Positions 6,094 to 22,335 of a stretch of 64,000 bases of DNA are shown here, piece by piece (within the stretch, counting starts at the first letter, position 1; each line of letters opens with the position of its first letter). The translations under genes and the position numbers were made by a program. The DNA is from Nocardioides houyundeii (lineage in GTDB: Bacteria; Actinomycetota; Actinomycetes; Propionibacteriales; Nocardioidaceae), in assembly GCF_002865585.1 (NCBI RefSeq), contig NZ_CP025581.1, positions 2,666,001-2,730,000 on the forward strand, written 5' to 3'. Under the pieces are notes generated by a model, which saw nothing but the letters and a program-made list of their open reading frames with translations, searched no databases and was not told the origin of the DNA.

Positions 6094-8367
6094 TCAGTGG
6101 GAAGCGGGGGTGTCGACCTGCCGGTCGTCGCGCAGATCGTACCCAGCGCCCCCGGGCCGCCGGCGCCCCAGCCACGGCACGAGACCGAGGAGCAGGGCCA
6201 GTAAGGTGCCCCCCGCCGCCGAGGCGACGCCCACCGTCAGGCCCGGCGGACGGTAGGAGAGCTCCACCTTGCCGACCGAGCCCGGCGGCAGCGTGACGGT
6301 CAGCAGACCGGTGCGGCCGTGTCCCACCGGCAGCGTGCGGCCGTCCAGCTCGGCCTCCCACCCCGGCCAGCCGAGCATCGCGAAGACCAGCCTGCCGCCG
6401 TCCTCGGCGTCGACCTCCACCCGCTGGTGCAGGGCGTCCACGGTGGTGGCGTCGCGCACCCGCACCCCGTTCGAGGCCCAGCTGAGCTCGGAGTCCGGCC
6501 ACGGCGGCTCCCCCTCGCGGTGCAGCACGATGCGGTCCTTGGTCCGCGACTCCTCCACCCACCCCGGCGTGGGCTGCACGCCCTTGGCGATCCGCGGCTG
6601 GACCACCACGGTCTCCAGCTTCATCAGGTCGGCCATGGACGGCATCCCGCCACCCTGGGCGCGCCACAGGTTGCGGTAGCCGCAGGGCTGGGTCAGGCCG
6701 TCGTACTCCATGCAGAAGTACTTGGTGAAGGGCAGGAAGCCCATTCCGGTGTAGTTGTTCACCGCCTCCACCCCGGCCGGGTGGTACATGCTGCCGGGCA
6801 GGTAGTCGGCCCACGCGTCCTCTAGGGCGTCGAGCCTGCCCTGGCGCTGCAGCGGCTTGAGGTCCGCGAACTGCATGGTGCGGCCCTCCAGCTCACCGAA
6901 GTCGTCCTGGAGCGCCGCGACGTCGCTGGGAACGTGCCACACCCGGGAGCTGGCGTTCTCCCCGAAGACGCCCACCTGGAGCACCAGCACGGCGCCCACC
7001 CCGGCGACGGCCACCGCGGCCACCGCCAGGTTGCGGCGCACCAGCAGGTGGGCGGCGAGCAGCAGCGCGGTGAGGACCAGCAGTGCCGCGGCTCCCAGGG
7101 CGGTCCGGCGCAGGGTCGCGGGGTCCTGGGCCCAGGTGAGGTACGACGTCATCAGCACCAGGGCGGCGGATCCGGCGACCCGGGCCTTGCGGTGCGAGGT
7201 CGCCAGGCCCTGCGACATGGCGACGGCGAGCGCCACCAGCACCGCGAGGTAGAAGTACTCCACCACCCGCAGCGGCCAGCGGAACAGCCACAGCTTGCTC
7301 GGACCCAGCGCCATCGCCAGGTAGAGACCGGCCACCAGGCCGAGCCCGGTGAACTCCCGCCAGCGTCCTGCGAGTGCCCGATAGCGCAGCCAGGGCAGCA
7401 GCGGCAGGACGAACCAGGCCAGGTAGGTGGCAGGCACCTGCATGGGACCGGTGATGGCCCGGATCGGCGGGACCAGGGTGGGCGAGCTCAGGCCCAGGAG
7501 GTCACCGGCCGCGGGGCGGAGCTTGCCGCTGTTCTCGAACAGGGCTCCCGTGGACCGGACCGCCAGGTCCGCCGAGGCGAGCAGCGGCAGGTAGACCAGC
7601 GGGAGGAAGGCGGCGATGCACAGGCCCACCCCGAGCACCCGGGCCAGGCCGCGCCAGGCCCGGGACACCGCGGCCTCGCAGACCAGGGCCGCGCCGATGA
7701 CCACCACCGCGAGCGTCCCGTAGGGGTTGCCGTGGGTCACGGCCAGCACCCCGACCACGAAGGCCAGCAGCGGGTTGCCCGCTCCGCGCAGGGTGCGGCG
7801 CAGCGTCACCCAGACCCACGGCGCGTAGGCGAACGCCATCAGCCCCGAGGGCCAGGACCCGGCGTCCCAGAACAGGGTGAAGCCCGAGAAGGGCAGGGCG
7901 ACCGCCACGGTCGCCGCGGCCCAGGGAGCGGCCTCGTACTCGCGAGCCAGCAGGTAGCTGCCCAGCGCCAGCGCCACCATCACCGTGGCCTTGACCACCA
8001 GGGTCGAGACGGCGAGGTCCGGGCCCAGGCTCACCCCCAGCCAGACCAGGACGTTGAGCGGGTTGTAGGTGCCGAAGAGCCCCTCGGCGACGTAGTTGCC
8101 GCCGGCCCAGGACGTCGGGTCCAGCCAGACCGGCCACTGGCCCTCACGCACCAGCTCGCCGAGGCGGAACCAGGTGGGCGCGAACTGCGCGGCGGTGTCC
8201 CCGCGCTGGTAGAACCGCGGCTCCAGCAGGTACGGGACCACGCTGTAGGCCGCAGTCACCACGCAGACCGCCAGCGCCCACCAGCGCCCCCCGCGGGCGC
8301 GCTGGGATGCGCGTTCGGGTGCGGATTCGGGCGCGCTGTCGGTCGTGAGGTCCTGCTGGGTGCTCAC
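6094..8367 (-). CDS. YfhO-like polytopic membrane protein
   Basis: 757 residues from GTG 8367, whose GTGA overlaps the stop of the glycosyltransferase by 4 bases. About twelve hydrophobic segments fill residues 30-500, followed by an extracytoplasmic C-terminal domain and a last membrane segment. Features of the YfhO family are visible: loop 1 with YQRGDTAAQFAPTWFRLGE and the sequence GWPGWEAELDG near the C-terminus followed by RTGLLTVTLPPG. YfhO proteins are GT-C-like and in Firmicutes add sugars to lipoteichoic acid or other surface polymers using undecaprenyl-phosphate sugars. Translational coupling to a GtrB-type enzyme, which makes such donors, supports the same role here. The acceptor is unknown. 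Confidence 0.8.
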   Translation of the reverse strand: MSTQQDLTTDSAPESAPERASQRARGGRWWALAVCVVTAAYSVVPYLLEPRFYQRGDTAAQFAPTWFRLGELVREGQWPVWLDPTSWAGGNYVAEGLFGTYNPLNVLVWLGVSLGPDLAVSTLVVKATVMVALALGSYLLAREYEAAPWAAATVAVALPFSGFTLFWDAGSWPSGLMAFAYAPWVWVTLRRTLRGAGNPLLAFVVGVLAVTHGNPYGTLAVVVIGAALVCEAAVSRAWRGLARVLGVGLCIAAFLPLVYLPLLASADLAVRSTGALFENSGKLRPAAGDLLGLSSPTLVPPIRAITGPMQVPATYLAWFVLPLLPWLRYRALAGRWREFTGLGLVAGLYLAMALGPSKLWLFRWPLRVVEYFYLAVLVALAVAMSQGLATSHRKARVAGSAALVLMTSYLTWAQDPATLRRTALGAAALLVLTALLLAAHLLVRRNLAVAAVAVAGVGAVLVLQVGVFGENASSRVWHVPSDVAALQDDFGELEGRTMQFADLKPLQRQGRLDALEDAWADYLPGSMYHPAGVEAVNNYTGMGFLPFTKYFCMEYDGLTQPCGYRNLWRAQGGGMPSMADLMKLETVVVQPRIAKGVQPTPGWVEESRTKDRIVLHREGEPPWPDSELSWASNGVRVRDATTVDALHQRVEVDAEDGGRLVFAMLGWPGWEAELDGRTLPVGHGRTGLLTVTLPPGSVGKVELSYRPPGLTVGVASAAGGTLLALLLGLVPWLGRRRPGGAGYDLRDDRQVDTPASH

Positions 8368-9401
8368 GCCTGCCCGCTCCGGCCGTGGGCAGCCAGGTCC
8401 TGCTGCTCGAGCTCGTGCGCCGCGCCGAGCACCGCGGTGACCGGGGTGTCGTCGGGACCGTTGCTGCTCTCCTTGAGCAGGAACAGCGGGCGTCTCTTGG
8501 TCTCGGCGTAGATCCTGCCCAGGTACTCGCCAATGACACCGAGGATGATCAGCTGCACGCCGCCGAACCCGGTGACCACGCAGATGGTGGTGACGTAGCC
8601 GGGCACCGCGTTGCCGTGCCACACCGCGTCGAGCAGCACCCAGGCGGCGTAGCCGGCCGCGACCACGGTCACCAGCAGGCCCAACCAGATCGACATCCGC
8701 AGCGGGCGGTAGTTGAACGAGACGACCCCGTCGATGCCGTAGTTGAACAGGTCCCGGAGCCGCCACTTCGTCGCGCCGGCCTCCCGCGAGACGTTCTCGT
8801 AGTCCACCACGGCGGTGGGGAACCCGATCCAGGCGAAGAGGCCCTTGGAGAACCGGTTGGTCTCCCCCAGGGCCAGCAGCGCCCGGACGGCCATCCGGTC
8901 CAGCACCCGGAAGTCGCCCACCCCGTCCTGGAGCTCGACGTCGACGAGCCGGTTCATCAGCTTGTAGTAGATCCGCGAGAGCCACGTGCGGACGGCGGGG
9001 TCGTTGGTCCGTGTCCGGCGCGCCACCACCTGGGAGTACTCCCCGTCCAGCAGGGGGAGCATCTGCGCGAGCAGGTGCGGCGGGTGCTGCAGGTCGGCGT
9101 CCATGATGGCCACCCGGTCGCCGCGGGCCTGGCTCAGCCCCGCGAGCATCGCGGACTCCTTGCCGAAGTTGCGGCTCAGCGCGAGGTAGCGGAACCGGGG
9201 CCGGGTGGCTGCCACCTCCCGGAGCAGCGCCAGGGTGGTGTCCCGGCTGCCGTCGTCGACGAGGATGACCTCGTAGCTGTCGGTGATCTCACCGAGCTCG
9301 GCCTCGAGGACCTCCACCAGCCTGGGGAGGGAGTCCTCCTCGTTGTAGCAGGGGATGACCACGGACAGGTCAAGGCGTGTTGGGGCCACCATGGCGGTCA
9401 T
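8364..9401 (-). CDS. GtrB/DPM1-type family 2 glycosyltransferase (polyprenyl-phosphate sugar synthase)
   Basis: 345 residues. An N-terminal GT-A fold carries VVIPCYNEEDSLP, the nucleotide-binding VDDGSRD, MDADLQHPP with the metal-binding D-x-D, and the G-DFRVLDR motif typical of dolichyl/polyprenyl-phosphate glycosyltransferases. Two C-terminal membrane helices follow (about 230-255 and 270-295), with GEYLGRIYAETKRRP at the end, the layout of GtrB, CsbB and YkoT. It transfers glucose or a related hexose from a nucleotide sugar to undecaprenyl phosphate on the cytosolic face. A second ATG at 9392 has a better-spaced GGGAG upstream and may be the true start. It is coupled to the YfhO-like gene that would use its product. 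Confidence 0.9.
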   Translation of the reverse strand: MTAMVAPTRLDLSVVIPCYNEEDSLPRLVEVLEAELGEITDSYEVILVDDGSRDTTLALLREVAATRPRFRYLALSRNFGKESAMLAGLSQARGDRVAIMDADLQHPPHLLAQMLPLLDGEYSQVVARRTRTNDPAVRTWLSRIYYKLMNRLVDVELQDGVGDFRVLDRMAVRALLALGETNRFSKGLFAWIGFPTAVVDYENVSREAGATKWRLRDLFNYGIDGVVSFNYRPLRMSIWLGLLVTVVAAGYAAWVLLDAVWHGNAVPGYVTTICVVTGFGGVQLIILGVIGEYLGRIYAETKRRPLFLLKESSNGPDDTPVTAVLGAAHELEQQDLAAHGRSGQA

Positions 9402-9418
9402 GCTCCCACATCGAGGGC

Positions 9419-9619
9419 TCAGGACTGGTCGCGGCGGTGCTGCTCCTCCAGCAGATCGATCACCGCACGCTCGACCCGGTCCACCTGTTCAGCCAGCAGC
9501 GTCTCCAGGTGGCGGTTCTCCGCCATGGCGACCTCGAGCCGACCGAGCTGCTCCTCGACGCCCTCGAACTCACGAACCCCGGCCACGTCGGCCAGGCGCT
9601 CCCGCGGCGAGCCGCTCAC
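9419..9619 (-). CDS. Short coiled-coil protein
   Basis: 66 residues from GTG 9619, sharing GTGA with the stop of the upstream sulfotransferase-like gene and ending 17 bases before the glycosyltransferase. It is almost entirely heptad-like (VEEQLGRLEVAMAENRHLET, then QVDRVERAVIDLLEEQ), charged and without Cys or membrane segments, so a helical adaptor or oligomerisation peptide is likely. The end of the upstream protein also has a coiled coil (VAELEARIAELEEQV). The tight coupling makes pairing between the two plausible, but this is inference. I recognise no family. Confidence 0.6.
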   Translation of the reverse strand: MSGSPRERLADVAGVREFEGVEEQLGRLEVAMAENRHLETLLAEQVDRVERAVIDLLEEQHRRDQS

Positions 9620-10931
9620 AGCGACCTCTGGCGGAACTCTCGCACCGCGCTCATCGTCAGCTCCCCGTCACGCAGGTCGGCAGGCAGCAGCAGCTCCTCC
9701 ACCAGGTCCGTCAGGGTGGCCACCCGCAGGTGCAGGGCGCGAGAGGCATGGACCTGCTCCTCGAGCTCCGCGATCCGCGCCTCCAGCTCCGCGACCCGTC
9801 GGTCCCGCACCGGCGCCGCAGCCCGGCGTAGCGTGGCGCCGACCATGCCCCGGGCGGCCGCGAGTCCGCGTGGTCGCGCGACGGGCCGGACACCCGGCTC
9901 CTTGGCGCCGCGCGGATCGGAGCCGGCGTCCCGCGCCCAGACCAGGAGGTCGGCCAGAGCCAGCACGGCGGCCTCGAGCAGCTCCTCCTCCGTCACGTCC
10001 TTCGGGAGGCGGGCGGGAGGGGCTTGGGGACGGAGGTCCTCGAGGTCACCGTGCACCAGGTAGCCCGCGGCCCGGATGGCGGTGATCGCCTCCTCGGCCT
10101 GCTCCCTCGCCAGCTCCAGGTGCTCAGGGGTGAGCCCGATGGGCTCGTGGCCGATCCCGGCCAGCACCTGGTGCGCCAGCACGTCCCTGATCCACAACGA
10201 GCGTTGACGACCCGCCTGGACGCGACCGTCGAGGGCCTTGTTGACCCGACGCAGCAGCTCGGCCTCCACCAGGCCGAGCGACTCGTTGACCCGGGTCACC
10301 GCGAGGTCGAGACCGCTCGTCTCGGACAGCCCGCACGCCTGGGCGAAGCGCCGCCACAGCTCGCTGCTGTCCCGGCTGTGGCTGGGCACGGTGATCACGT
10401 GCACCTGGTCGGCGGGCAGGTCCGCGCCCCAGCGGGCCGCGACGTTGGCCGGCTGCATGGTGCGCCAGCCCCACTCGCTCTCCGGGGCGCTCTCAGCGGG
10501 GGCTGCCAACGCTCGAGCGGTCGGATGAGCCCGAACTTCAGCTGCTCCTGCCACGCCGAGGGGATGGACTTGCCCAGGTCACGCGCGGTGACCAGGACGT
10601 GCACCTGCAGCCCTTCCAGGGCACCGAGCGCGACGCGGACCTGCTCGATCGAGGCCCCCGCGAAAAGCTCGTAGCTGAGGACCGCGGCGGGTCCGCGCCA
10701 AGCCCGGATCTGGGCCACCAACCGGTCCCAGGAGCCGCGCGCCAACTCGGGGAGCCGGTCCAGCCGCGGGTCCTCACGGACCACCATCGAGGCATGGATC
10801 GCCTCCAGGCGCGGACCCACCACCAGGGTCCCGGCCTCGGCGAGACGGGCGGAGTTGGTCTCCAGCACCTGCTGCAAGAAGGTCGTCCCCGACTTGGGGC
10901 CTCCCACGTGGAGGTACACAACCTCAGTCAT
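9616..10931 (-). pseudogene. P-loop sulfotransferase-like protein, frame broken by one missing base
   Basis: Read from ATG 10931, MTEVVYLHVGGPKSGTTFLQ has the PAPS-type P-loop (PKSGTT) of sulfotransferases. The frame continues to ERWQPP, then breaks at the GGGGG run 10498-10502. Restoring one G gives ERWQPPAESAPESEWGW and an unbroken 438-residue protein to the stop at 9616, ending in a coiled coil. Both halves have actinobacterial codon bias. The N-terminal half matches a group of actinobacterial proteins with a sulfotransferase P-loop whose acceptor is not known. ATG 10931 overlaps the upstream stop by 8 bases. Either a base-call error or a real 1-bp deletion; see findings. Confidence 0.75.
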
Positions 10932-12527
10932 CGTTCGCCTGTCCTGTCGTGGGGATCTGTTCGCCAGCGGAGGCGGGAGTGGGCCACTCCACCACCATGC
11001 GCCACCTGGTCGGGGACCCCGACCGCACCGAGCGTGCGGCCGCGGTGAAGTTCTCGCGCAGCACCACGGTGCCGCCGGCCGCCCGGGCGGCCACCTCGAC
11101 GTCCGCGGGGTCCAGGGGCAGCACCCGAGGGATGCCCCGCTCACTGTGGAGCCTGCGGCACTCGGCCCGGGAGCGGCTCATGCCCTCCAGGTAGACCCGA
11201 CCGCCGGGACGCAGCGCCATGGAGGTGAAGCGCCAGAACGCCTCGCGCACCGGTTCCTCCACAGACTCCAGCAGCCGACGAGCGCAGACCACCCGGGGGC
11301 CCGAGGCGCGCGCCGCCACGGCCCCGGAGGTGAGGACGTCGCGCAGGTCCAGCAGGTTGAGGTTGCGCCGGGACGCACCCTCGGGCAGCCCCTCGATCGG
11401 GCGGCCTCCGGCAGCGCCTCGTCCCGGGTGCGCGAAGTCGTAGGCCAGGGCCCGGTATCCCTCCGCGGCATAGTGCCGGGTGTCGGCCAGCGACCCCGAT
11501 CCGATGTCCAGCACGCGGGCCGGCCCTCGAGCTGCCCCGTCACCCAACGGGCGAAGGACGACCCCGAGGAGTCCTGCTTCGCGGCGGCCGCGGTGTTGAC
11601 CGAGACCCAGTCCCGACGGTGGGTCATCAGGGACCCGAACCAGTCGTGGAAGCGCTCGGTCGTCTCCCTGTCGGGCTGGTGCCGGAACGAGGGATCGGGC
11701 ACCTTCCAACCGGGACCGTAGGAGACCGTCAGCATCCGGTCGGGTTCCGCCGGCGCCGGCATCAGCCTGCCTTCGAACTCAAGCTGGCGAAGCGGCATGA
11801 TCGCGGACCGCGGCACCGGCGCCCGCACCGTGGCGGTCTCGTACAGCAGGTCGCCGACGTAGAAGCAGGTGTAGATGTCGATCCCGTCCATGCCGCCGTC
11901 CGGCGCCTCGTAGACGACGGTGATGAAGCTGGCCGACTTGTGCTTGACCTGGATCCCGGCATCGGTGAGCGCGCGGGCGATCGACCACAGCTCGGCGATC
12001 ATCTCCGCGGGCGTCGCGCGCTCGGACAGGAAGCACAGGTCGATGTCGCTGTCGTGGCCGATGACGGCGCCGGAGCGAGCCGCACCCAGCAGCGTGCCGA
12101 AGGAGATCCAGCCGTCGATGCCGCAGTCACGGCGCATCACCTCGAGGACCTGCTCGGCCATCTGGGTCATCATCTCGACGGCGCCACCGGCCCGACGCAC
12201 CTCGAAGGGCCGCTGCTGCAGGCCCCACTTGTCGATGATGATCTGCGTGCCGTGCCGGTCCACCAGCTCGACCCGCCCCGTCCCGGAGCCGAAGCTGACC
12301 TCGCCTTCGAAGAGCTGCTCGCCCTCGTGGGTCACCGACACCTGGGAGACGCCGTCGAGCCAGGGGCGCAGCCGCTTGGGCCAGGGCACCACGAAGGGCT
12401 CCTCGGAGACCCGGTCGATGGCAGCGGACCAGCCGCGCCAACCGTCGAAGTGCACGTCGACCGATCCTGGGAACGCGCCGACCACCTCGAGGCCGTCGTC
12501 ATCGACCCTGCACACCCGCGGCTTCAT
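10924..12527 (-). pseudogene. LicD-like transferase fused to SAM methyltransferase, frame broken by one missing base
   Basis: ATG 12527 has GGAGG upstream. Residues 1-330 contain SFGTLLGAARSG then GHDSDIDLCF, the LicD/fukutin-type nucleotidyltransferase signature with D-x-D metal ligands, and a GIDIYTCFY strand. LicD proteins move phosphocholine or similar groups onto surface sugars. The frame breaks near 11524, within GGCCGGCCC. Adding one G/C joins TGQLEG to PARVLDIGSG, the glycine-rich loop of a class I SAM methyltransferase of about 200 residues running to 10924. The restored protein is 534 residues. If real, the fusion would couple head-group transfer to methylation of a surface glycan. 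The downstream sulfotransferase-like gene overlaps its stop. Confidence 0.68.
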
Positions 12528-12568: not shown

Positions 12569-15500
12569 CTACTGCACGGAGAACTTGCTGGAGATCACCG
12601 CATGGTCGGTCGCCCGGCGAACCCGGTTGGACTGGTCGATGGCGGTCCCGCTGAAGGTCCCCCGAGAGCCGAACACCCAGTCGACACGCATGTTCTTGGG
12701 CGGCTTGCACGACCCGTTGTGGGTGCCTCCCTGGGCAGCCTCGAGGTTGGTGCTCCCCACCACCTTGCAGAACGCGTCACGGTGCTCGTTGAAGTCACCG
12801 GTCAGCATGATCGGCAGGCCGTCGGCGTCGAGCTGCTTGATCGCAGCCACGATGATGTTCAGCGCCTTCTTGCGGTCGTCCTCCATCTTTCCCGGGGACA
12901 GGTGCACGTTCATCATGTAGACCTCCGCGCCACTGGCGCGGTTGCGGAGGCGGACCAGCGCCTGCGGCCGCGACTGGTGCATGAACGGCATCGAGATCGT
13001 GCTGCCCCAGACGAACTCCCAGTCCGCCTCGCGCCACATGATCGACTGCGTGGCGCCGGCGTAGCCCATGGTGTTGCCGGGGTAGAACGAGTAGGCGCCC
13101 TGGGTGGCGACGTCGAAGGAGGTCACCTGGTCGGGCTGGATCTCCTGGGTCCCGATCAGGGACGCGTCGCGCGCCGAGATCACCTGCTTGGCCCACTCGG
13201 TCCGCACCCGGCCGGGCGCGAACGCGGGGCGTCCCCCGGTGGGCGCGGTGTGCTGGCTGCCCAGCACGTTGAAGGACATGATATTGAAGGACGCGGCCTT
13301 GCGGCTGGCCAGCCGCGCCGAGACGGCGGGACGGCCGGCGATCCCGGCGGTGGCGATGCGCTTGGCACCCCACTGCTTGACCTGCTGGTTGGTCAGCGGG
13401 GTCGGAGCGACCCAGGTGGGCCTGGGCGCGGTCGGCATCGCGGCCACCGACTGGACGCCGTTGCCCAGCTGACCCTGGTCGTTGGCGCCCCAGCAGGTCG
13501 GGCCGGCGGTCGACAGGGCGCACGCGTGCATCCATCCGGCGGCCACGGCACCGCCGACCGAGGTCACGCCTGCGGGGACAGGAACCGTGGAGGACGTCGA
13601 CGTCGCCGGGCCCAGCTGGCCGTAGCGGTTGTCGCCCCAGCACCACACCGCGCCGCTGCGCTCGGTGGCGCACGCGCCGGCGAGGCTCGTGGCGACCTGC
13701 GCCCAGCTGCCGTTCCCGCCCGCGACCGAGACCGGGTTGGACCGGTCGGCGTAGGTCCCGTCGCCGATGCCGCCCGAGGCGTTGTCGCCCCAGCAGCGCA
13801 GCCCGCCGTCCACCAGCACGCCGCAGGTCCGCCCCCAGGTGGCACTCAGCTGGGTGAAGGACCCCTCGCCCTTGACCCGCTGCGGCCGCACCCGCAGGGT
13901 CGTGGTCCCGTCCCCGACCTCACCGAAGGTGTTCTCCCCCCAGCACCACGCAGAGCCGTCACCGGCGGTGCCGCAGGTGTGCCAGCCCCCCGCCGTCACG
14001 CCGGTCCACTGCTGGTCGCCGAGCACCCGGAGCGGGGTGCTGCGCGAGGAGGTCTTGCCGTTGCCGAGCTGGCCCCGACTGTTCTGGCCCCAGCACCACA
14101 TGCTGCCGTCAGCCTGGGTCGCGCAGGCGTGCCCCCAGGAGGCGGAGACCTCGCGCCACGTCGCACCGGTGCCGACCTGGCGGGGCAGGTTGGAGCTGGT
14201 CTTGTCGGTGCCCCCGAGCTGGCCGAAGTTGTTCAGCCCCCAGCACCACAGCGTCCCGTCGGTCTTCACCCCGCAGGTGAAGCTGCCCCCGGTGGCCACC
14301 CGGGCCCAGCCGGAGCCCGCGACCTGCGCGGGCGAGACGCGCAACGTGTTGGTGCCGTCGCCGAGCTGGCCGAAGTCGTTGCGGCCCCAGCACCAGGCGG
14401 ACCCGTCAACGCGCACCTCGCACGTGCTCTGGCCCCCCGCACTGAGCGCGCCGGACGCGGCACGGGCGTTGAGCAGCACCTTGCCGGAGCGCGCCGTGGT
14501 GGCGGGCGACGTGCCCGCCACGGTGAAGGAGACCTCGTAGATCCCCGAGGACGGGAGCTCACCGCTGAGCAGTCCGGTCTCTGACAGGGTGAGACCGGTC
14601 GGGACGGACACCGGAGCCCACCGGACCGCGGGAGCCACCGGCGATCCACCCGTGGCCTGCAGCTGCACCGAGATCGGCTCGCCGGCGGCCACCATCAGCT
14701 GCTGCTCGACCGGGTCCGGCCAGAGCGAGAGCTGCTTCCAGGCGGCGTCGGCGGCCTGACGGAGCACCGCCTTGGAGGCGCCCTTGTGGTAGGAGCCGGA
14801 GACCTTCAGCGCCTTGCCGACCTTGGTCCGACGGGGGTTGCACACGAGGTCGGCACGGTGGCAGACCGAGATGGCGCGGAACGTCGGCACCGAGCCCGGC
14901 ACGTCGCCCACCGACTTGCCGAACCGGGCGATCACACCCTTGGACCCGTTGCCGGCGGACGGCTTGCCCAGCGGGCGGCCCGCTGAGGACTTCGGGACCC
15001 GGTAGGGGTCGGAGACGAGCACGACTCCGGCGACGTTGCCGAGCTTGCCCGCCTTGTCCAGCTTCTGGGAGACCAGGTGCGCCACGGCAGCACCCTGGGC
15101 GTAGCCCACCAGCAGCACCTGCTGCTCCGGACAGCTCGCCATCCGCTTGGCCAGCAGGGTGCGGGTCTTCTTCACGCCCGCGCTCACCGGCGCCTTCCAG
15201 CGCCGCAGCTGCTTCTTGGAGACCGCCTTGGTGGCGGGGGTCCCGGCCTTCCGGCCGCCCTTGAGCACCGTGTTGGCCGGGGTGCCGACGCGGATCCGGG
15301 ACGTGGTCACCGACCGGTTCTGCGCCGTCGCGCGGGCGGTGACCTTGTTCGCGACCTTGGCGACCACCGCGCCGTACTTGGCCTTGCGTCCCTGGCCGTT
15401 GCCGTCGATGCCGACCACGAGCACGTCGGTGCAGGTCGACGCGGCCGACCGCTCCACCTCCGGCAGCGGCGCGACCTCGGCGCCCTGCTGGTCGGCGACC

Positions 15501-15613
15501 ACCAGGAGCACGGAGCCGAGCACGCAGGCCGTCACCGCCCTGGCCACCGTGGCACGAGTCGCGGTCCGTGAGACGGAAGCGAGGCTGCGGAGTGACCAGG
15601 GCGCACGCGTCAT
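12569..15613 (-). CDS. Exported multidomain protein: serine-less cutinase-like domain, RCC1 repeats, EEP phosphoesterase domain
   Basis: 1014 residues from ATG 15613, one base after the upstream stop. An N-terminal hydrophobic segment (about 24-40) suggests export. Residues 60-290 follow the cutinase plan: STCTDVLVVGIDG, the nucleophile elbow GYAQG, CHRADLVC and SYHKG. The expected GYSQG serine is Ala172, while Asp255 and His276 remain, so esterase activity should be lost. Residues about 300-385 form an Ig-like (He_PIG-type) domain. About 390-725 hold seven RCC1-type repeats with the core WCWGxNxxGQLGDG. About 770-1014 is an endonuclease/exonuclease/phosphatase domain (FNVLGSQHT, GTQEIQ, TGDFNEH, TDHAVI) with its catalytic motifs kept. 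The EEP part is a paralogue of the domain at 17530-18843. Confidence 0.85.
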   Translation of the reverse strand: MTRAPWSLRSLASVSRTATRATVARAVTACVLGSVLLVVADQQGAEVAPLPEVERSAASTCTDVLVVGIDGNGQGRKAKYGAVVAKVANKVTARATAQNRSVTTSRIRVGTPANTVLKGGRKAGTPATKAVSKKQLRRWKAPVSAGVKKTRTLLAKRMASCPEQQVLLVGYAQGAAVAHLVSQKLDKAGKLGNVAGVVLVSDPYRVPKSSAGRPLGKPSAGNGSKGVIARFGKSVGDVPGSVPTFRAISVCHRADLVCNPRRTKVGKALKVSGSYHKGASKAVLRQAADAAWKQLSLWPDPVEQQLMVAAGEPISVQLQATGGSPVAPAVRWAPVSVPTGLTLSETGLLSGELPSSGIYEVSFTVAGTSPATTARSGKVLLNARAASGALSAGGQSTCEVRVDGSAWCWGRNDFGQLGDGTNTLRVSPAQVAGSGWARVATGGSFTCGVKTDGTLWCWGLNNFGQLGGTDKTSSNLPRQVGTGATWREVSASWGHACATQADGSMWCWGQNSRGQLGNGKTSSRSTPLRVLGDQQWTGVTAGGWHTCGTAGDGSAWCWGENTFGEVGDGTTTLRVRPQRVKGEGSFTQLSATWGRTCGVLVDGGLRCWGDNASGGIGDGTYADRSNPVSVAGGNGSWAQVATSLAGACATERSGAVWCWGDNRYGQLGPATSTSSTVPVPAGVTSVGGAVAAGWMHACALSTAGPTCWGANDQGQLGNGVQSVAAMPTAPRPTWVAPTPLTNQQVKQWGAKRIATAGIAGRPAVSARLASRKAASFNIMSFNVLGSQHTAPTGGRPAFAPGRVRTEWAKQVISARDASLIGTQEIQPDQVTSFDVATQGAYSFYPGNTMGYAGATQSIMWREADWEFVWGSTISMPFMHQSRPQALVRLRNRASGAEVYMMNVHLSPGKMEDDRKKALNIIVAAIKQLDADGLPIMLTGDFNEHRDAFCKVVGSTNLEAAQGGTHNGSCKPPKNMRVDWVFGSRGTFSGTAIDQSNRVRRATDHAVISSKFSVQ

Positions 15614-15614
15614 G

Positions 15615-16934
15615 TCAGTTCTCCTCCTTGATGAGGGCGTACGGGTCGACACCCTCGATCAACGTGGTGTCGTTGCCAGGCAAAGCCCGGCGCCCGGCCG
15701 CCTTGCCGGGGGTGTTCGGATCCGCACCCCATGCCTTCGGCCGGTGGGTGAACATGTAGTCGATCCACTTCATGTACTTGGTGGTGACGCCGCCCTTGTA
15801 GACCTGACCCAGGACCTCGTCGCTGGCCAGGGCCACCGGAGTCCAGTTGGCCGAGCCGTTGAGCGTGAACTTCGCGGCCGGGTTGCCCCCGTAGTTGCCG
15901 CTGATCGCCATCGCCTTCATGTGCACGTAGCGGTCGTAGACGCCGTCCTTGTTCGAGTCGTAGGCGAGGTGGGTCAGCGGGACCCCGGCCTGGCGCAGGA
16001 TCTTGAGGACGTTGTTGCCGAACATGGCGTAGACGATCCGGATGTTGCAACCCTGCTTGCGCAGCGAGGCGAGCTTCTTGGCGATCTTGATGCCGCGGTC
16101 GCCGTACATGGCGGTCTGGGCGATCCGGATCCGGGTGCGACCGTTCTTGGTCGCGGCACCGGTGCAGGAGACCTGCTTGAGGATGTCGATGACGGGGTCG
16201 CCCACCGCGCCCTCACCGCGGAACGGGTAGAAGCCGTTGGCGATGACGCCGTCGGTGTAGCCCACCAGCCCCTGCTTGACCGTCTTCTGCCGCGCCATCT
16301 GCTTGAACACCTTCTCGAAGGTGGCGTAGCGCGCGGTGTCCCGCTTGATCGTGTAGAGGTCGTTCCACTGGATCGTGGCACCCAGCTCGGTGGCGTTGTA
16401 GGAGCCGTACATGATCACGTCCGGGACCTTCACGACCTTGCTGAACAGGAAGAACTTGGTGTGCGCGATGCCGCTCTTGCCACGGCAGGCGCTGATGCAC
16501 TTGCGCACCCAGCTGCGCATCTCCTTGGGCCGCTGCTTGTTGCCCTTCTTCAGCCCCTCGATCAACCGGCGCGCGTCCGCGTTGGGGTTGTTGGGGTTGT
16601 AGTTGTGGCGGTCCATCACGACCTGGACGCTGATCTTGCGCTCCTGGTGCGCACGGATCAGCGAGGTGACGATGCTCGAGCTGCGCACGTTCCACGAGGC
16701 GATCCGGATCTTCTGCTTCTTCGGGACGCTGTCGATCGTGCGGTTCACCTGGCGGATCAGCCGCCGCACCTCCTGCGGCTTGCCGTAGGGGTCGTTGAAC
16801 GCCGGCCCCGACTTGGGGACGAAGTTGTCGGGCGCCGGCTTGGCCGGCTTGGCCAGGGCCGGGCTGCCGAGCCCGAGGGTGGCCGACACCATCAGGGCGA
16901 CGGAGAGGAGTGCGACGACGAATGACTTGCGCAA
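15615..16934 (-). CDS. Secreted phospholipase D-like protein
   Basis: 439 residues from TTG 16934, the only start that keeps the signal peptide (RKSFVVALLSVALMVSATLG, cleavage after SPALA). Two PLD half-motifs are seen: HTK with His158 and Lys160 (IAHTKFFLF, then YGSYNAT) and HMK with His338 and Lys340 (VHMKAMAI, then NGSANWT). Spacing is that of a bilobal PLD enzyme. The canonical Asp of HxKx4D is absent, as in some secreted nuclease- or lipid-acting members. It probably hydrolyses phosphodiesters outside the cell; nucleic acid versus phospholipid cannot be decided. It precedes the RCC1-EEP gene by one base and follows a possible promoter. Confidence 0.85.
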   Translation of the reverse strand: MRKSFVVALLSVALMVSATLGLGSPALAKPAKPAPDNFVPKSGPAFNDPYGKPQEVRRLIRQVNRTIDSVPKKQKIRIASWNVRSSSIVTSLIRAHQERKISVQVVMDRHNYNPNNPNADARRLIEGLKKGNKQRPKEMRSWVRKCISACRGKSGIAHTKFFLFSKVVKVPDVIMYGSYNATELGATIQWNDLYTIKRDTARYATFEKVFKQMARQKTVKQGLVGYTDGVIANGFYPFRGEGAVGDPVIDILKQVSCTGAATKNGRTRIRIAQTAMYGDRGIKIAKKLASLRKQGCNIRIVYAMFGNNVLKILRQAGVPLTHLAYDSNKDGVYDRYVHMKAMAISGNYGGNPAAKFTLNGSANWTPVALASDEVLGQVYKGGVTTKYMKWIDYMFTHRPKAWGADPNTPGKAAGRRALPGNDTTLIEGVDPYALIKEEN

Positions 16935-17078: not shown

Positions 17079-17533
17079 TCAGGCCCCGCAGGCCGAGAGA
17101 GCGCTCTGGAACTGGGGGTTCTTGGCCAGGGGGGTGGCCGACTCGACGACCCTCTCGCCCTTGGCCGCGTAGAAGGTGCGTCCGAAGGTCACCAGGTTCT
17201 GGCCCGAGGAGCAGGGGTACACGAAGGCCTCGCGCCACTTCGTCCCGTCCAGGCATCCCTGGTAGCGGCGCGGCAGGACCTGTCCGTCCACCCACACCTC
17301 CTCGCACAGGGGCCCCTCGGGGGTCGCCTCCTCCTCGGTCGACTCCGTGGGGTCCCCTCCGGGCTGGGCGAGGAGGAGACGGACGTCCCCGGGGTGCTCG
17401 CGGAGTCGTCGGAGGCGGTGTCGGAGGAGTCCTCCCCACACCCGGTGAGCAGCACCGTGAGCACGGCCGCGAGCAGGATCGACGCCGCGGGGTACCGACG
17501 CTTGGGTGCAGAGTTGGGGAGCGAGGTCCTCAT
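17079..17533 (-). pseudogene. Small lipoprotein, frame broken by one missing base
   Basis: ATG 17533 opens a lipoprotein signal peptide: basic MRTSLPNSAPKRR, then a hydrophobic stretch ending in the lipobox LLTGC. A Ser/Asp/Thr linker follows. The frame is lost at about 17349-17357 (GGGG then T then CCCC). One added base joins SPSPEG to DPTESTEEE and gives 151 residues, ending CGA at 17079. The mature C-half (EEVWVDGQVLPRRYQGCLDG, TFYAAKGERVVES) has Cys at CEE, GCLDG, PCSSG and near the end, so disulfides are likely. No family recognised. ATGA overlap with the upstream EEP gene implies co-expression. Probably anchored on the outer face of the membrane. Confidence 0.7.
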
Positions 17534-18843
17534 TGTTCTCCTGGGTCGGTGACTTGGACTGCTGCATGGATGAAGTAGTGATCGCTGGCGCGGGCCAGGG
17601 ACGCCCCGTCCTGCACGTAGCCGGAGAAGCTGACCCCGCCGCCGCCGCCGCCCATGATCCAGTCGACGCGCAACGGCCGCGGCGGGAGCGAGCAGCCCAC
17701 TCCCCCGCCGTTGGCAGCCAGGAACCCCGTGGCGCCGCAGACCGAGTAGAAGAACTCCTCGTGCTCGTTGACGTCGCCCATGATGAGCACCGGCTTGCCG
17801 TTGCGTGCCTGGAGCTCCTTGATCAGCGAGATCTGGCGAGCGGTGGCCGCGTCCCGCTGGCCCTCCAGGTCCCGGGCGGAGTTGTGGGTGGTGATGACCC
17901 AGAACTGCGCCTGGGTCTCCCGGTCGCGCAGCAGGACGAAGGGCAGCGGGATCGTCTGGCTGTCGAAGACATAGCTGACCGAACCGGTGTCGAGCAGCTC
18001 GAACCGCGAGTCGCGCCACGCGATCTGCAGGCGCTGGCCGTTGCTGCCCAGCTGGTGCTGCGGCCACACGGTGTAGCCGGGAAGCCGGTTCAGGAGCACC
18101 GGGAGCTGGTCGTCCTGCACCTCCTGCAGGCCCACCACGTCGACGCCGCGGGAGGTGACCAGCCCGGCGGAGATGCCGGCCCGCTCGGGTCCGGGACCGT
18201 AGCCACCGGCACCGCGGGTGTGCTGGCTGCCCAGGATGTTGAGGCTGCCGACCCGGAAGGTGGAGGTCTTGGCCATCTGTGCGCGCCGGGCCATCGCCTT
18301 GCGGCGCTGCTGCTGCTTCTTCTTGCGAGCAGCGGCCTGACGGGCGGCGATGCGCTCGACCTGCCGCTTCTTGGCCCGGGTCGCGGCGACCTTGGTGCGC
18401 TGGTGCAGGTCGGCGGCGAACGCCCAGGTGCTGGCTGTGCCGGGGCGGTCGCGCAGCAGGGCCCGGGACACCTGGCCGGCGCGGTCCTCCTGGCCCTCCC
18501 CTGCGGCTCCGGTCCCCTGCTCGGCCTGTCCCTCGGTCCGCCCTGCGCCCCGCTCCTGCCCAGCGGCCTGGTCGGTGGCCTGCTCGGTGGGCCCCGCAGC
18601 GGCGGGCCCACCCGTGGGGGATCCGGATCCCTGCGGACCGAGGGGGGCAGAGGCCCCGTCGGGCACCGTGTCCTGGCCGCCCCAGAGAGCTCGCCCGGGG
18701 ACGACCATCAGCCCGAGCACCAGCACGAGCCCGAGGACGGTCGCCAGGACCCGCCACGACGGCAGGGAGACCTGTCTGGGTCCACCGGGCGCTGGGCGCT
18801 GGGCCGGGCGCGGGTCTCGGTGGTTGGCTCGATGGTTGGACAT
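17530..18843 (-). CDS. Membrane-anchored endonuclease/exonuclease/phosphatase-family protein
   Basis: 437 residues from ATG 18843 (MSNHRANHRDPRPAQ). One membrane helix near residues 30-48 is followed by a low-complexity Gly/Ala/Glu/Gln linker and a Lys/Arg-rich segment (AARKKKQQQRRKAMARRAQ) before the EEP domain from about 200 to the end. Catalytic motifs are present: SLNILGSQHT, LQEVQ with the metal-binding Glu, MGDVNEHEE, and ASDHYFI with the terminal Asp-His pair. The domain resembles extracellular DNase/phosphatase members. It is the first gene of the minus-strand set that includes the lipoprotein, and is divergent from the MgtE-N gene across 188 bases. Substrate unknown; topology places the catalytic domain outside. 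Confidence 0.85.
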   Translation of the reverse strand: MSNHRANHRDPRPAQRPAPGGPRQVSLPSWRVLATVLGLVLVLGLMVVPGRALWGGQDTVPDGASAPLGPQGSGSPTGGPAAAGPTEQATDQAAGQERGAGRTEGQAEQGTGAAGEGQEDRAGQVSRALLRDRPGTASTWAFAADLHQRTKVAATRAKKRQVERIAARQAAARKKKQQQRRKAMARRAQMAKTSTFRVGSLNILGSQHTRGAGGYGPGPERAGISAGLVTSRGVDVVGLQEVQDDQLPVLLNRLPGYTVWPQHQLGSNGQRLQIAWRDSRFELLDTGSVSYVFDSQTIPLPFVLLRDRETQAQFWVITTHNSARDLEGQRDAATARQISLIKELQARNGKPVLIMGDVNEHEEFFYSVCGATGFLAANGGGVGCSLPPRPLRVDWIMGGGGGGVSFSGYVQDGASLARASDHYFIHAAVQVTDPGEQ

Positions 18844-19031
18844 CGAGACACCCTTCTGCCGTGGGACTAGAACCGCTCTGCACACACCGACCCTGCGCCG
18901 GGTGGCCTGGACGGTCCAACAGGGTAACGCATCTCGAGGGGGCCGGTCTGCGTTGCCGAACGCCCCCCGACAGGCCCGGGCCTCACGTCGGTGCCACGCC
19001 AGCGCCGCATCGCACAGGTAACCTTGCGCGC

Positions 19032-20276
19032 GTGAGCAACACCCCCTCGCGCGTCTACGTGGCCCGCCTCGTCGGCCTGCCGATCTTCGACCCCCAGGGG
19101 GATCAGGTCGGCAAGGTGCGCGACCTCGTGGTCACGGTGCGGGGCGAGGCCAGCCAGCCGCGGGTGCTCGGGCTGGTCGCCGAGGTGTTCGGCCGACGGC
19201 GGATCTTCGTGCCCATGACCAGGGTGACCCACATCGACAGCGGGCAGGTCTACACCACGGGGCTGCTCAACATGCGACGGTTCGAGCAGCGCCCCACCGA
19301 GACCCTGGTGATGGCGCAGATGCTCGACCGGTCGGTCCGCATCGTGCCCACCGATGTCCGGGGCACCGTGTACGACGTGGCGATGGAGCAGGCGCGCACC
19401 CGTGACTGGGTGCTCAGCCGGGTCGCGGTCCAGGAGCCGGCGAAGGGGTTCCGCCGACGTGGCCAGACCTACATCGTGGACTGGCGCGACCTCGAGGGCC
19501 TCACCCGGCACGAGCCCTCCCAGGGCGCCACGCACCTGATCGCGGCGATCAGCGACATGCGCCCGGCGGACGCGGCCCACATGATCCACGACCTCCCGGC
19601 CGAGCGGCGTACCGCCGTGGTGGCTGCGATGGACGACGAGCGGCTGGCCGACGTCCTCGAGGAGCTGCCCGAGGAGGACCAGGTCCAGATCATGGAGCGC
19701 CTGGACTCCGAGCGTGCCGCGGACGTGCTGGAGGAGATGTCGGCCGACGACGCCGCGGACCTGATCGCCGACCTCGCGCCCGAGACCGCGGCCACGCTGC
19801 TCGCCCTGATGGAGCCCGGGGAGGCTGAGGACGTCCGGCGCCTGATGTCCTACGCGGAGCGGACCGCCGGCGCCATGATGACTCCGGAGCCGGTGATCCT
19901 GGGACCCGACGCCACCATCGCCGACGCCCTCGCGCACGTGCGCAACCCCGACCTCACACCGGCTCTGGCCGCCCTGGTCTACATCTGCCGCCAGCCGTTG
20001 GAGACCCCCACCGGTCGGCTCCTGGGCGCGGCCCACATCCAGCGCCTGCTGCGCGAGCCCCCGTCCACCCTGGTCGCCGCGGCCCTGGACAGCTCCCTGG
20101 ACCCGTTGCACCCCGAGGCGCGCATCGACGAGGTCGCCGCCCACCTCGCGACGTACAACCTGGTCGCCGCGCCCGTGGTGGACGAGGAGGGCCGCCTGCT
20201 GGGCGCGGTCACCGTGGACGACCTCCTCGACCACATGCTGCCGGAGAACTGGCGGGACCAGGCGGTGCGCCGATGA
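19032..20276 (+). CDS. MgtE N-terminal and CBS domain protein without transport domain
   Basis: 414 residues from GTG 19032. An N-terminal PRC-barrel-like part (VYVARLVGLPIFDPQGDQVG) is followed by the MgtE N superhelix (about 190-280: MIHDLPAERRTAVVAAMDDE, VLEELPEEDQVQIMERL repeats) and a CBS pair (GAMMTPEPVIL, then NLVAAPVVDEEGRLLGAVTV). The MgtE channel helices are missing, so it cannot transport Mg2+ alone; known actinobacterial relatives share this architecture and their function is not settled. It probably senses Mg2+ or nucleotide for a partner. The DUF1003 membrane protein overlaps its stop by 4 bases and is the obvious candidate partner. Confidence 0.88.
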   Translation: MSNTPSRVYVARLVGLPIFDPQGDQVGKVRDLVVTVRGEASQPRVLGLVAEVFGRRRIFVPMTRVTHIDSGQVYTTGLLNMRRFEQRPTETLVMAQMLDRSVRIVPTDVRGTVYDVAMEQARTRDWVLSRVAVQEPAKGFRRRGQTYIVDWRDLEGLTRHEPSQGATHLIAAISDMRPADAAHMIHDLPAERRTAVVAAMDDERLADVLEELPEEDQVQIMERLDSERAADVLEEMSADDAADLIADLAPETAATLLALMEPGEAEDVRRLMSYAERTAGAMMTPEPVILGPDATIADALAHVRNPDLTPALAALVYICRQPLETPTGRLLGAAHIQRLLREPPSTLVAAALDSSLDPLHPEARIDEVAAHLATYNLVAAPVVDEEGRLLGAVTVDDLLDHMLPENWRDQAVRR

Positions 20277-20806
20277 GCGAGTCCCGGCCCACCCGCAGCC
20301 GGCTGGACACGCCGCGCGACACCCGCCGCAGCCTGCGACCCCGGCGCTCCTACGACGCCGACGCGTTCGGGGTGTTCGCCGAGCAGTTCGCCCGATTCAT
20401 GGGGACGGCGCGCTTCCTGGCCTACATGACGATCTTCGTGGCCGTGTGGATGGCCTGGAACATCCTGGCCCCGACCCAGTGGCGGTTCGACGAGTTCCCC
20501 TTCATCTTCCTCACCCTGATGCTCAGCCTCCAGGCGTCGTACGCCGCCCCGCTGATCCTGCTGGCCCAGAACCGGCAGGAGGTCCGCGACAAGGTGGTGG
20601 CCGAGCAGGACCGTCAGGTCAACGCCCGCGCCCACGCGGACATGGAGTTCCTGGCGCGTGAGGTCGCCTCGCTGCGGATGTCGGTGGGCGAGGTGGTCAC
20701 CCGCGACTTCCTCCGCTCGGAGTTCCGGGGCCTGCTCAACGACCTCGACGAGCGCTCCCGGCCGCTCGATCCCGACGAGGACGGGGCCGAGGTCACCGAC
20801 CGCTGA
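20273..20806 (+). CDS. DUF1003 membrane protein
   Basis: 177 residues; ATGA overlap with the MgtE-N gene. Two membrane helices (about 44-63 and 74-95: AYMTIFVAVWMAWNIL, FIFLTLMLSLQASYAAPLIL) are followed by the DUF1003 signature LAQNRQEVRDK and a helical, charged C-terminal region. The family has no settled function; it is repeatedly paired with MgtE-N/CBS proteins in actinobacteria. The order and overlap here argue for a two-component Mg2+-related membrane complex, which is inference. Confidence 0.9.
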   Translation: MSESRPTRSRLDTPRDTRRSLRPRRSYDADAFGVFAEQFARFMGTARFLAYMTIFVAVWMAWNILAPTQWRFDEFPFIFLTLMLSLQASYAAPLILLAQNRQEVRDKVVAEQDRQVNARAHADMEFLAREVASLRMSVGEVVTRDFLRSEFRGLLNDLDERSRPLDPDEDGAEVTDR

Positions 20807-20851
20807 CTCCGCCGGAGGCCGCGCTGGGAGGGGCAACTACGCTTGGGCCCC

Positions 20852-22014
20852 ATGAGCACCCCCACCGTCGAGCAGGTCACCGCTGCACTCGCGACCGTCC
20901 ACGACCCGGAGATCAAGCGGCCCATCACCGACCTCGGCATGGTCGAGAGCGTCGGGATCTCCCCTGACGGCCGCGTGGCCGTCACCGTCCTGCTGACCGT
21001 GGCCGGGTGCCCCCTCAAGGACACCATCACCCGGGACGTCACCGGCGCCGTCTCGGCCGTGGCCGGCGTCACCGACGTCATCCTCACCCTGGGCGTCATG
21101 TCGCCGGAGCAGCGCAGCCAGCTCGGCGAGAACCTGCGCGGCGGCCAGGCCCAGCGCGAGATCCCGTTCGCCCAGCCCGGCTCGCTGACCAAGGTCTACG
21201 CCATCGCCAGCGGCAAGGGCGGGGTCGGCAAGTCGTCGGTCACGGTGAACCTCGCCCTGGCGCTCGCCGACGAGGGGCTCAAGGTCGGCATCGTCGACGC
21301 CGACATCTACGGGCACTCCGTCCCGGCGATGCTGGGCGTGGCGGACCACCGCCCGACCCAGGTCGACGACCTGATCATGCCCGTCCCGACGCCCTCGGGC
21401 GTCTCGGTCATCTCCATCGGCATGCTCAAGCCGCGCCGCGACCAGGTGGTCGCCTGGCGCGGCCCGATGCTGGACCGGGCGCTGGTGCAGATGCTGGCCG
21501 ACGTCTACTGGGGCGACCTGGACGTGCTGCTCCTGGACCTCCCGCCGGGCACCGGCGACGTGGCCATCTCGCTGGGGCAGCACCTGCCCAACGCCGAGGT
21601 CGTCGTGGTCACCACGCCGCAGGAGGCCGCCGCCGAGGTCGCCGAGCGCGCCGGCACCATGGCCTCGATGATGCACCAGCGGGTGGTGGGGGTCGTGGAG
21701 AACATGTCCTACCTGCCCTGCCCGCACTGCACCCCGAGGGCAAGGAGCACAAGCTGGAGATCTTCGGCGCCGGCGGTGGCGAGCGAGTCGCCAAGACGCT
21801 GTCGGAGCGCTTCGGCTACGACGTGCCGGTGCTGGGCTCGGTGCCGTTGGAGCTCTCGCTGCGCGCGGGCGGCGACGCCGGGCGGCCGATCGTGGAGTCC
21901 GATCCCACCGCGCCGGCGGCGATCGTGCTGCGCGACATCGCCAAGGCGCTGCACGGACGTGGCCGCGGACTGGCCGGCATGCAGCTGGGGCTCACCCCGT
22001 CCAGTAAGTTCTGA
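20852..22014 (+). pseudogene. mrp: Mrp/NBP35-type Fe-S cluster carrier ATPase, frame broken by one missing base
   Basis: ATG 20852 opens a MIP18-like domain (VEQVTAALATVHDPEIKRPI), then the P-loop ATPase with SGKGGVGKSSV, VDADIYGHS and DLPPGTGD. The frame runs to ENMSYLPCPHC, whose C-x-x-C carries the bridging Fe-S cluster, then shifts at the CCCC run 21732-21735. One added C gives TPEGKEHKLEIFG and a full 387-residue protein with the usual end (LAGMQLGLTPSSKF) at 22014. Mrp transfers Fe-S clusters to apo-enzymes. Every downstream motif is intact in the shifted frame, which speaks against old decay. tatB starts three bases after the stop. Confidence 0.88.
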
Positions 22015-22017
22015 CCC

Positions 22018-22335
22018 ATGCTGGGAGTCGGTCTGCCGGAGATGGCGGTGATCGCGTTCGTCGCGGTGCTCGTCTTCGGTCCCGACCGGCTCCCCGAGCT
22101 CGCCAAGCAGGCAGCACAGATGGTCCGCAAGGTCCGCACCTTGGCGAACTCGGCCCGGGACGAGCTGCGCACCGAGCTCGGCCCGGAGTATGCCGACCTC
22201 GAGCTGCGGGACCTGGACCCGCGCAACGTGGTCCGCAAGCACATCATGGAGGCCATGGAGGACGAGCCGTCACGTCCCGTCCCGGTGCGACTGGCTGCCG
22301 GGGCGCTGCCGCCGTACGACGTCGAGGCCACCTGA
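22018..22335 (+). CDS. tatB: Sec-independent protein translocase subunit TatB
   Basis: 105 residues. One N-terminal membrane helix (LPEMAVIAFVAVLVFGPDRLPELAK) with the FGPxxLP hinge, then an amphipathic helix (AQMVRKVRTLANSARDELRT) and an acidic tail. This is the TatA/B layout, and the longer helix and ELGPEYADLELRDLDP favour TatB. It forms the receptor with TatC for folded proteins bearing twin-arginine signals. tatA and tatC are not in the window. It lies directly after mrp. Confidence 0.88.
   Translation: MLGVGLPEMAVIAFVAVLVFGPDRLPELAKQAAQMVRKVRTLANSARDELRTELGPEYADLELRDLDPRNVVRKHIMEAMEDEPSRPVPVRLAAGALPPYDVEAT

Follow-up and report, generated by a model that had tools for sequence, protein, structure and literature searches.

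A Nocardioides cutinase-fold domain without catalytic serine and histidine, fused to RCC1 repeats and an EEP phosphoesterase

A gene on the minus strand of a 64,000-nucleotide stretch of the Nocardioides houyundeii genome (contig NZ_CP025581.1, positions 2,666,001 to 2,730,000; hereafter the window) encodes a protein that joins a cutinase-fold domain to an Ig-like domain, RCC1 repeats and an EEP phosphoesterase domain. Comparison with its homologues revealed that the nucleophile Ser and the catalytic His of the cutinase domain are both replaced, while Asp, Gln and Cys of the site are kept, and the domain is presumably a catalytically inactive pseudoenzyme. Taken as a whole, the protein is best explained, in our view and with moderate confidence, as an exported phosphoesterase held by its polyanion-binding pseudo-cutinase on a polymer, most likely a phosphate-bearing surface glycopolymer. 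Residues are numbered in the 1,027-amino-acid version, so that Ala185, Asp268 and His289 correspond to Ala172, Asp255 and His276 of an earlier, sequence-only reading of this DNA. The gene is laid out as follows.

12569..15613, minus strand: whole gene, 1014 amino acids from the ATG at 15613 or 1027 from the upstream GTG at 15652
15467..15613, minus strand: putative N-terminal export signal or membrane anchor, a basic start followed by ACVLGSVLLVVA, judged by eye
14699..15445, minus strand: presumed pseudo-cutinase domain, residues 70-318, net charge +34 (profile match and predicted model)
15098..15100, minus strand: Ala185 (GCC) at the nucleophile Ser position, motif GYAQGA (alignment)
14849..14851, minus strand: Asp268, the retained triad Asp, flanked by Cys264 and Cys271 (alignment)
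14798..14800, minus strand: Ser285 (TCC) at the HxxY His position of ordinary cutinases (alignment)
14786..14788, minus strand: His289, formerly supposed to be the catalytic His; His in 6 of 94 rows, not conserved
14459..14698, minus strand: Ig-like beta domain, residues 319-398
13418..14455, minus strand: seven RCC1 repeats, residues 400-745
12572..13306, minus strand: EEP phosphoesterase domain, residues 783-1027, retaining its catalytic residues

Domains and active site

The cutinase profile PF01083 (CE5) is matched by the window protein at 51.6 bits (cut-off 25.9), and the predicted model of the domain contains the alpha/beta hydrolase fold of cutinases, as the sequence-only reading had expected. 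That reading had also described an Ig-like domain, seven RCC1 repeats and an EEP domain with intact catalytic residues, all of which were recovered: RCC1 scored 153.7 bits with six stretches above the cut-off and seven CWG motifs, which would form a propeller, and PF03372 scored 25.3 bits (cut-off 24.5), with the predicted EEP fold and the catalytic Asn, Glu, His and Asp-His all present. The relative in locus L105, at 22.3 bits, lies under the same cut-off.

Passages of one published account (PMC8577158) give nine characterised cutinases a Ser-His-Asp triad, with one Ser-His-His exception, and an oxyanion hole made up of Gln and either Ser or Thr. We counted the corresponding residues in 94 full-length rows, that is the window protein and 93 homologues, omitting the window's own duplicate P0001. 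Position 185 is Ala in 89 rows, Ser in three, Asp in one and a gap in one, which confirms the proposed absence of the nucleophile; a sequencing error was rejected as the origin of the Ala, as it is common to other genomes. Asp268, Cys264 and Cys271 are present in all 94 rows, again as proposed. The claim of a retained catalytic His fell, with His289 rejected for that role: alignment with ordinary cutinases places the HxxY His at column 285, where the window has Ser. Only four of the 94 rows have His there, namely the Ser rows P0114, P0118 and P0119 and the doubtful P0040, whose HxY rather than HxxY motif, inside the Ala crown of the tree described below, we took for an alignment coincidence. 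A larger set gave the same picture, with His at this column in 7 of 9 Ser rows and 14 of 16 ordinary cutinases but in 3 of 103 Ala rows. Because the His is missing too, one would not expect the reversion A172S by itself to bring back the triad.

Around the dead site, the Gln following the nucleophile position is kept in 102 of the 103 Ala rows, and the oxyanion-Ser column (position 85) is Asn in 89 of them. One observation weighs against this account of loss: column 85 is not clearly Ser in the nine Ser rows either, so that their activity is only putative.

Known cutinases such as 7cc4, 2czq, Rv3802c (5w95) and Fusarium cutinase thus differ from the present domain, which lacks Ser and His, is strongly basic and is fused to Ig, RCC1 and EEP domains. 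The S120A cutinase (1cui) carries its Ala as a laboratory point mutation, whereas the present domain has Ala as a fixed, natural residue and has lost the His too. The EEP domain differs from the PF03372 members 3mpr, 3g6s, Bt3783 mannosyl-6-phosphatase (4c1r) and Tdp2 in belonging to a subfamily whose records, retrieved with the pattern FN[VIL]LG[ST][QNS]HT, were mostly named Nocardioidaceae. The RCC1 part shares its repeats and sequence matches with UVR8, HERC2 and RCC1 (BLIP-II more weakly) but sits in a bacterial multidomain protein that is presumably exported. As far as literature listings go, the domain order is undescribed, as had been supposed: searches for cutinase, RCC1 and Nocardioides and for LicD and Nocardioides returned no paper, cutinase with RCC1 alone returned plant papers by listing, and cutinase with pseudoenzyme returned plant GDSL lipases only, although papers on mycobacterial cutinase-like proteins may hold an inactive homologue.

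Family distribution and repeated loss of serine

The protein does not stand alone but belongs to a conserved family in soil bacteria of the genus Nocardioides and its relatives. After scoring, 1757 of 7996 candidates passed the threshold, and 94 among the 120 homologues listed have matches to the cutinase domain as well as to the EEP domain; P0115 and P0121, apparently frameshifted copies by eye, were not counted as separate architectures. Within the genus, 43 of 196 genomes had any match and 27 carried the family at 200 bits or more. The family-level sample (n = 245) added five genomes from three sister groups at 170 bits or more, the next non-genus score being 89, and matches outside the family in the order-level sample (n = 245) reached at most 82 bits. 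Three of these out-of-family matches (L114, L115, L120) were inspected and have Ser at the nucleophile position.

A tree of the cutinase domain (130 rows, both trait columns excluded, quick mode, long branches flagged) placed the family in one clade of 114 rows (SH-aLRT 99), the 18 rows labelled as outgroup including two family fragments (P0093, P0094). Within the clade, a crown of 101 rows (SH-aLRT 97) comprises 99 Ala, one Asp and one gap, and the 13 early rows comprise nine Ser and four Ala. A three-domain tree was built in careful mode from 53 rows (34 loci, the window and 18 of the 93 other homologues), with L111 flagged as long and eight rows flagged for odd composition. It requires five Ser/Ala changes, at least four of them on well-supported branches, and enforcing a single Ala clade cost 139 log-likelihood units (p-AU 1.06e-7). 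Four or five changes are thus seen on the trees, and their direction is probably from Ser to Ala with the domain kept, since Ser is found in 16 of 16 outgroup rows and His is kept beside Ser.

Ser together with His is found, for example, in L040, L062 and P0119. Two loci, L063 and L112, have Ala with the His still present, suggesting that Ser went first there, and L107 and L110 have Ser without His, as expected from the opposite order of loss. L139 (Nocardioides sp. R-C-SC26, 8363-10735) retains a signal-like start, Ig, RCC1 and EEP, with the cutinase domain absent. One domain in one architecture therefore occurs in related genomes with Ser and His, with Ser only, with Ala and His, with Ala only, and not at all. 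Many pseudoenzymes are known as isolated, completed examples; a natural series of this kind makes the order and cause of enzyme death testable with natural proteins.

Constraint, charge and possible function

Selection on the cutinase domain was estimated by NG86 in 18 pairs. The ratio of non-synonymous to synonymous substitution rates (dN/dS) was 0.14-0.33 in the six close pairs (dS < 0.5) and 0.14-0.84 across all 18; the three window pairs (0.60-0.78) are uninformative through saturation, as are the three most distant ones. Eleven dead-site columns of our choosing showed a mean conservation of 98% in Ala rows against 54% for the whole domain, with one of the eleven, Ala185, being fixed by the grouping itself.

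The window domain contains 26 Lys and 18 Arg against 8 Asp and 2 Glu, while the Ig and RCC1 domains are near neutral and the EEP domain carries +6. Mean net charge was +22.5 in 102 Ala rows (4 to 36), +14.2 in nine Ser rows (3 to 36) and -4.1 in 16 ordinary cutinases (-15 to 18), with Mann-Whitney p values, for related and non-independent rows, of 2e-9 for Ala versus ordinary and 0.016 for Ala versus Ser. Against a crude background of 1152 stretches from 258 other open reading frames (ORFs) of the window and 24 fetched loci, probably including wrong-frame ORFs, +34 falls between the 95th (+26) and 99th (+38) percentiles. Forty-nine of the 258 ORFs have a stretch of at least +20, and at least six of the fifteen most charged are the PLD-like gene of the locus; the 15 family genes in the comparison set range from +9 to +51. 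The sequence-only reading had proposed a binding module for lipid, polyester or glycan. A presumably non-catalytic module agrees with this, but the strongly basic character of the domain suggests a polyanion as ligand, not a polyester.

On the explanation we favour, the family probably descends from a cutinase-Ig-RCC1 protein that had the nucleophile Ser and was already partnered with the EEP enzyme. Ser would then have been lost repeatedly with the domain kept, and the domain, judging from its charge and conservation, would now serve as a polyanion-binding module. Together with the RCC1 propeller it may hold the EEP domain, and probably a basic PLD-like partner, on the polymer, as suggested by fusion, natural splits and the operon. 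As the polymer we consider a surface glycopolymer that bears phosphate and is decorated by the LicD-methyltransferase and sulfotransferase-like gene products of the locus most likely; we prefer it because of these genes and because one of the nearest folds is that of the glycan phosphatase Bt3783. This identity of the polymer, together with its trimming or remodelling by the EEP domain, is the weakest step. More tentatively, one conserved protein may have seen its serine-hydrolase fold turn, at least four times in parallel, into a positively charged module that binds polymer and so brings a phosphoesterase to a phosphorylated surface glycopolymer made by its own operon, which would constitute a new kind of cell-envelope remodelling system. 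Were this so, the system would offer a natural series from Ser and His through half-lost and fully lost to domain-less proteins. The locus is also a candidate envelope-remodelling system in Nocardioides.

A somewhat unlikely alternative is an extracellular nuclease: DNA or RNA would be bound by the basic pseudo-cutinase and the PLD-like protein and cleaved by the EEP domain, whether to gain nutrients, to control biofilms or for uptake. The earlier proposal of a targeted extracellular nuclease or phosphatase holds insofar as a non-catalytic module stands beside RCC1 repeats and an intact EEP domain; however, LicD-methyltransferase and sulfotransferase-like genes would be expected where a polymer is decorated, not where DNA is used, which favours a glycopolymer over DNA as the target.

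Distinctly less probable is that the cutinase domain is decaying, its esterase no longer needed, and persists as a spacer on its way to loss. Ser and His have indeed changed repeatedly, the His kept beside Ala in L063 and L112 fits step-wise decay, L139 has lost the domain, and dN/dS of the EEP domain is below that of the cutinase domain in all six close pairs. Yet the low ratios in these same pairs indicate purifying selection, and the dead-site residues, with the common Asn85, are conserved across Ala rows down to 32% identity with the window. Continued catalysis through another residue, such as His192 or Asp268, or an Asn85-based changed chemistry is highly improbable: each of the 103 Ala rows has His192 and Asp268, but His192, which we rejected as a new active-site residue, also occurs in all nine Ser rows and in ten of the 16 ordinary cutinases, and among the replacements at the elbow position the only usual nucleophile is one Asp (P0051).

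Neighbouring genes

The genes around the family gene in the window are these.

15615..16934, minus strand: PLD-like protein, upstream neighbour, signal-like start, net charge +39
17079..17567, minus strand: small lipoprotein-like protein (s162), signal part in another frame in the window
17530..18885, minus strand: second EEP protein (EEP2), N-terminal hydrophobic segment
11178..12527, minus strand: LicD-family gene, a single ORF with the methyltransferase in relatives, frame-broken here
10924..11709, minus strand: methyltransferase part of the LicD gene, in another frame here
9616..11144, minus strand: sulfotransferase-like P-loop gene carrying DUF6752, split over two frames here (9616-10554, 10395-11144)
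8364..9401, minus strand: family 2 glycosyltransferase (GT2)

Fifty-two loci were fetched, 34 of which belong to the family, the other 18 having lower-scoring cutinase matches or none. Thresholds were 190 bits for PLD, 150 for LicD and for the sulfotransferase-like gene, 250 for EEP2 and 50 for the others; absences are upper limits, as some stretches are short (5.4 kb in L067). PLD and LicD were each present in 32 of the 34 family loci, the methyltransferase in 31, the sulfotransferase-like gene in 30, acyl-CoA dehydrogenase in 29, the lipoprotein in 28, GT2 in 18, YfhO in 17 and EEP2 in 16. A divergent MgtE-like/DUF1003/Mrp block (window 18279-22051) adjoins the locus in 33, 32 and 30 of the 34, respectively, and several loci lacking the cutinase gene have it too.

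The cutinase-RCC1 part and the EEP domain form one gene in 22 of the 34 loci and two neighbouring genes in 12, with three changes between these states on the three-domain tree. EEP2 was found only beside fused genes (16 of 22 loci, against 0 of 12 split loci), and the separate EEP proteins of L045 and L058 have an N-terminal hydrophobic segment by eye. Two peptide patterns retrieved 69 EEP loci from titled records; 19 of these carry the family cutinase, and 16 lack it but have PLD and LicD, so that the core locus does not need the cutinase gene. Two HxK pairs are conserved in 50 rows of the PLD-like protein, the window having Ser where the HKD motif carries Asp, and the LicD rows retain an HDSDIDL-type motif.

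An ORF scan of the flanks of L148 and L175, EEP loci without the LicD locus, gave no clear theme, yielding a second EEP-type gene and CAP, PIG-L, transporter, PLP-enzyme and sigma-factor genes. In L148, L159, L160 and L168, EEP2-like ORFs stand three in a row, in stretches where no LicD-locus genes were matched. Finally, the LicD-methyltransferase, sulfotransferase-like, lipoprotein and Mrp genes, single ORFs in relatives, all change frame in the window by eye (9616-12527, 17079-17600 and 20843-22051); four breaks in about 12.5 kb, one of them in a housekeeping-type gene, suggest assembly indel errors rather than real loss.
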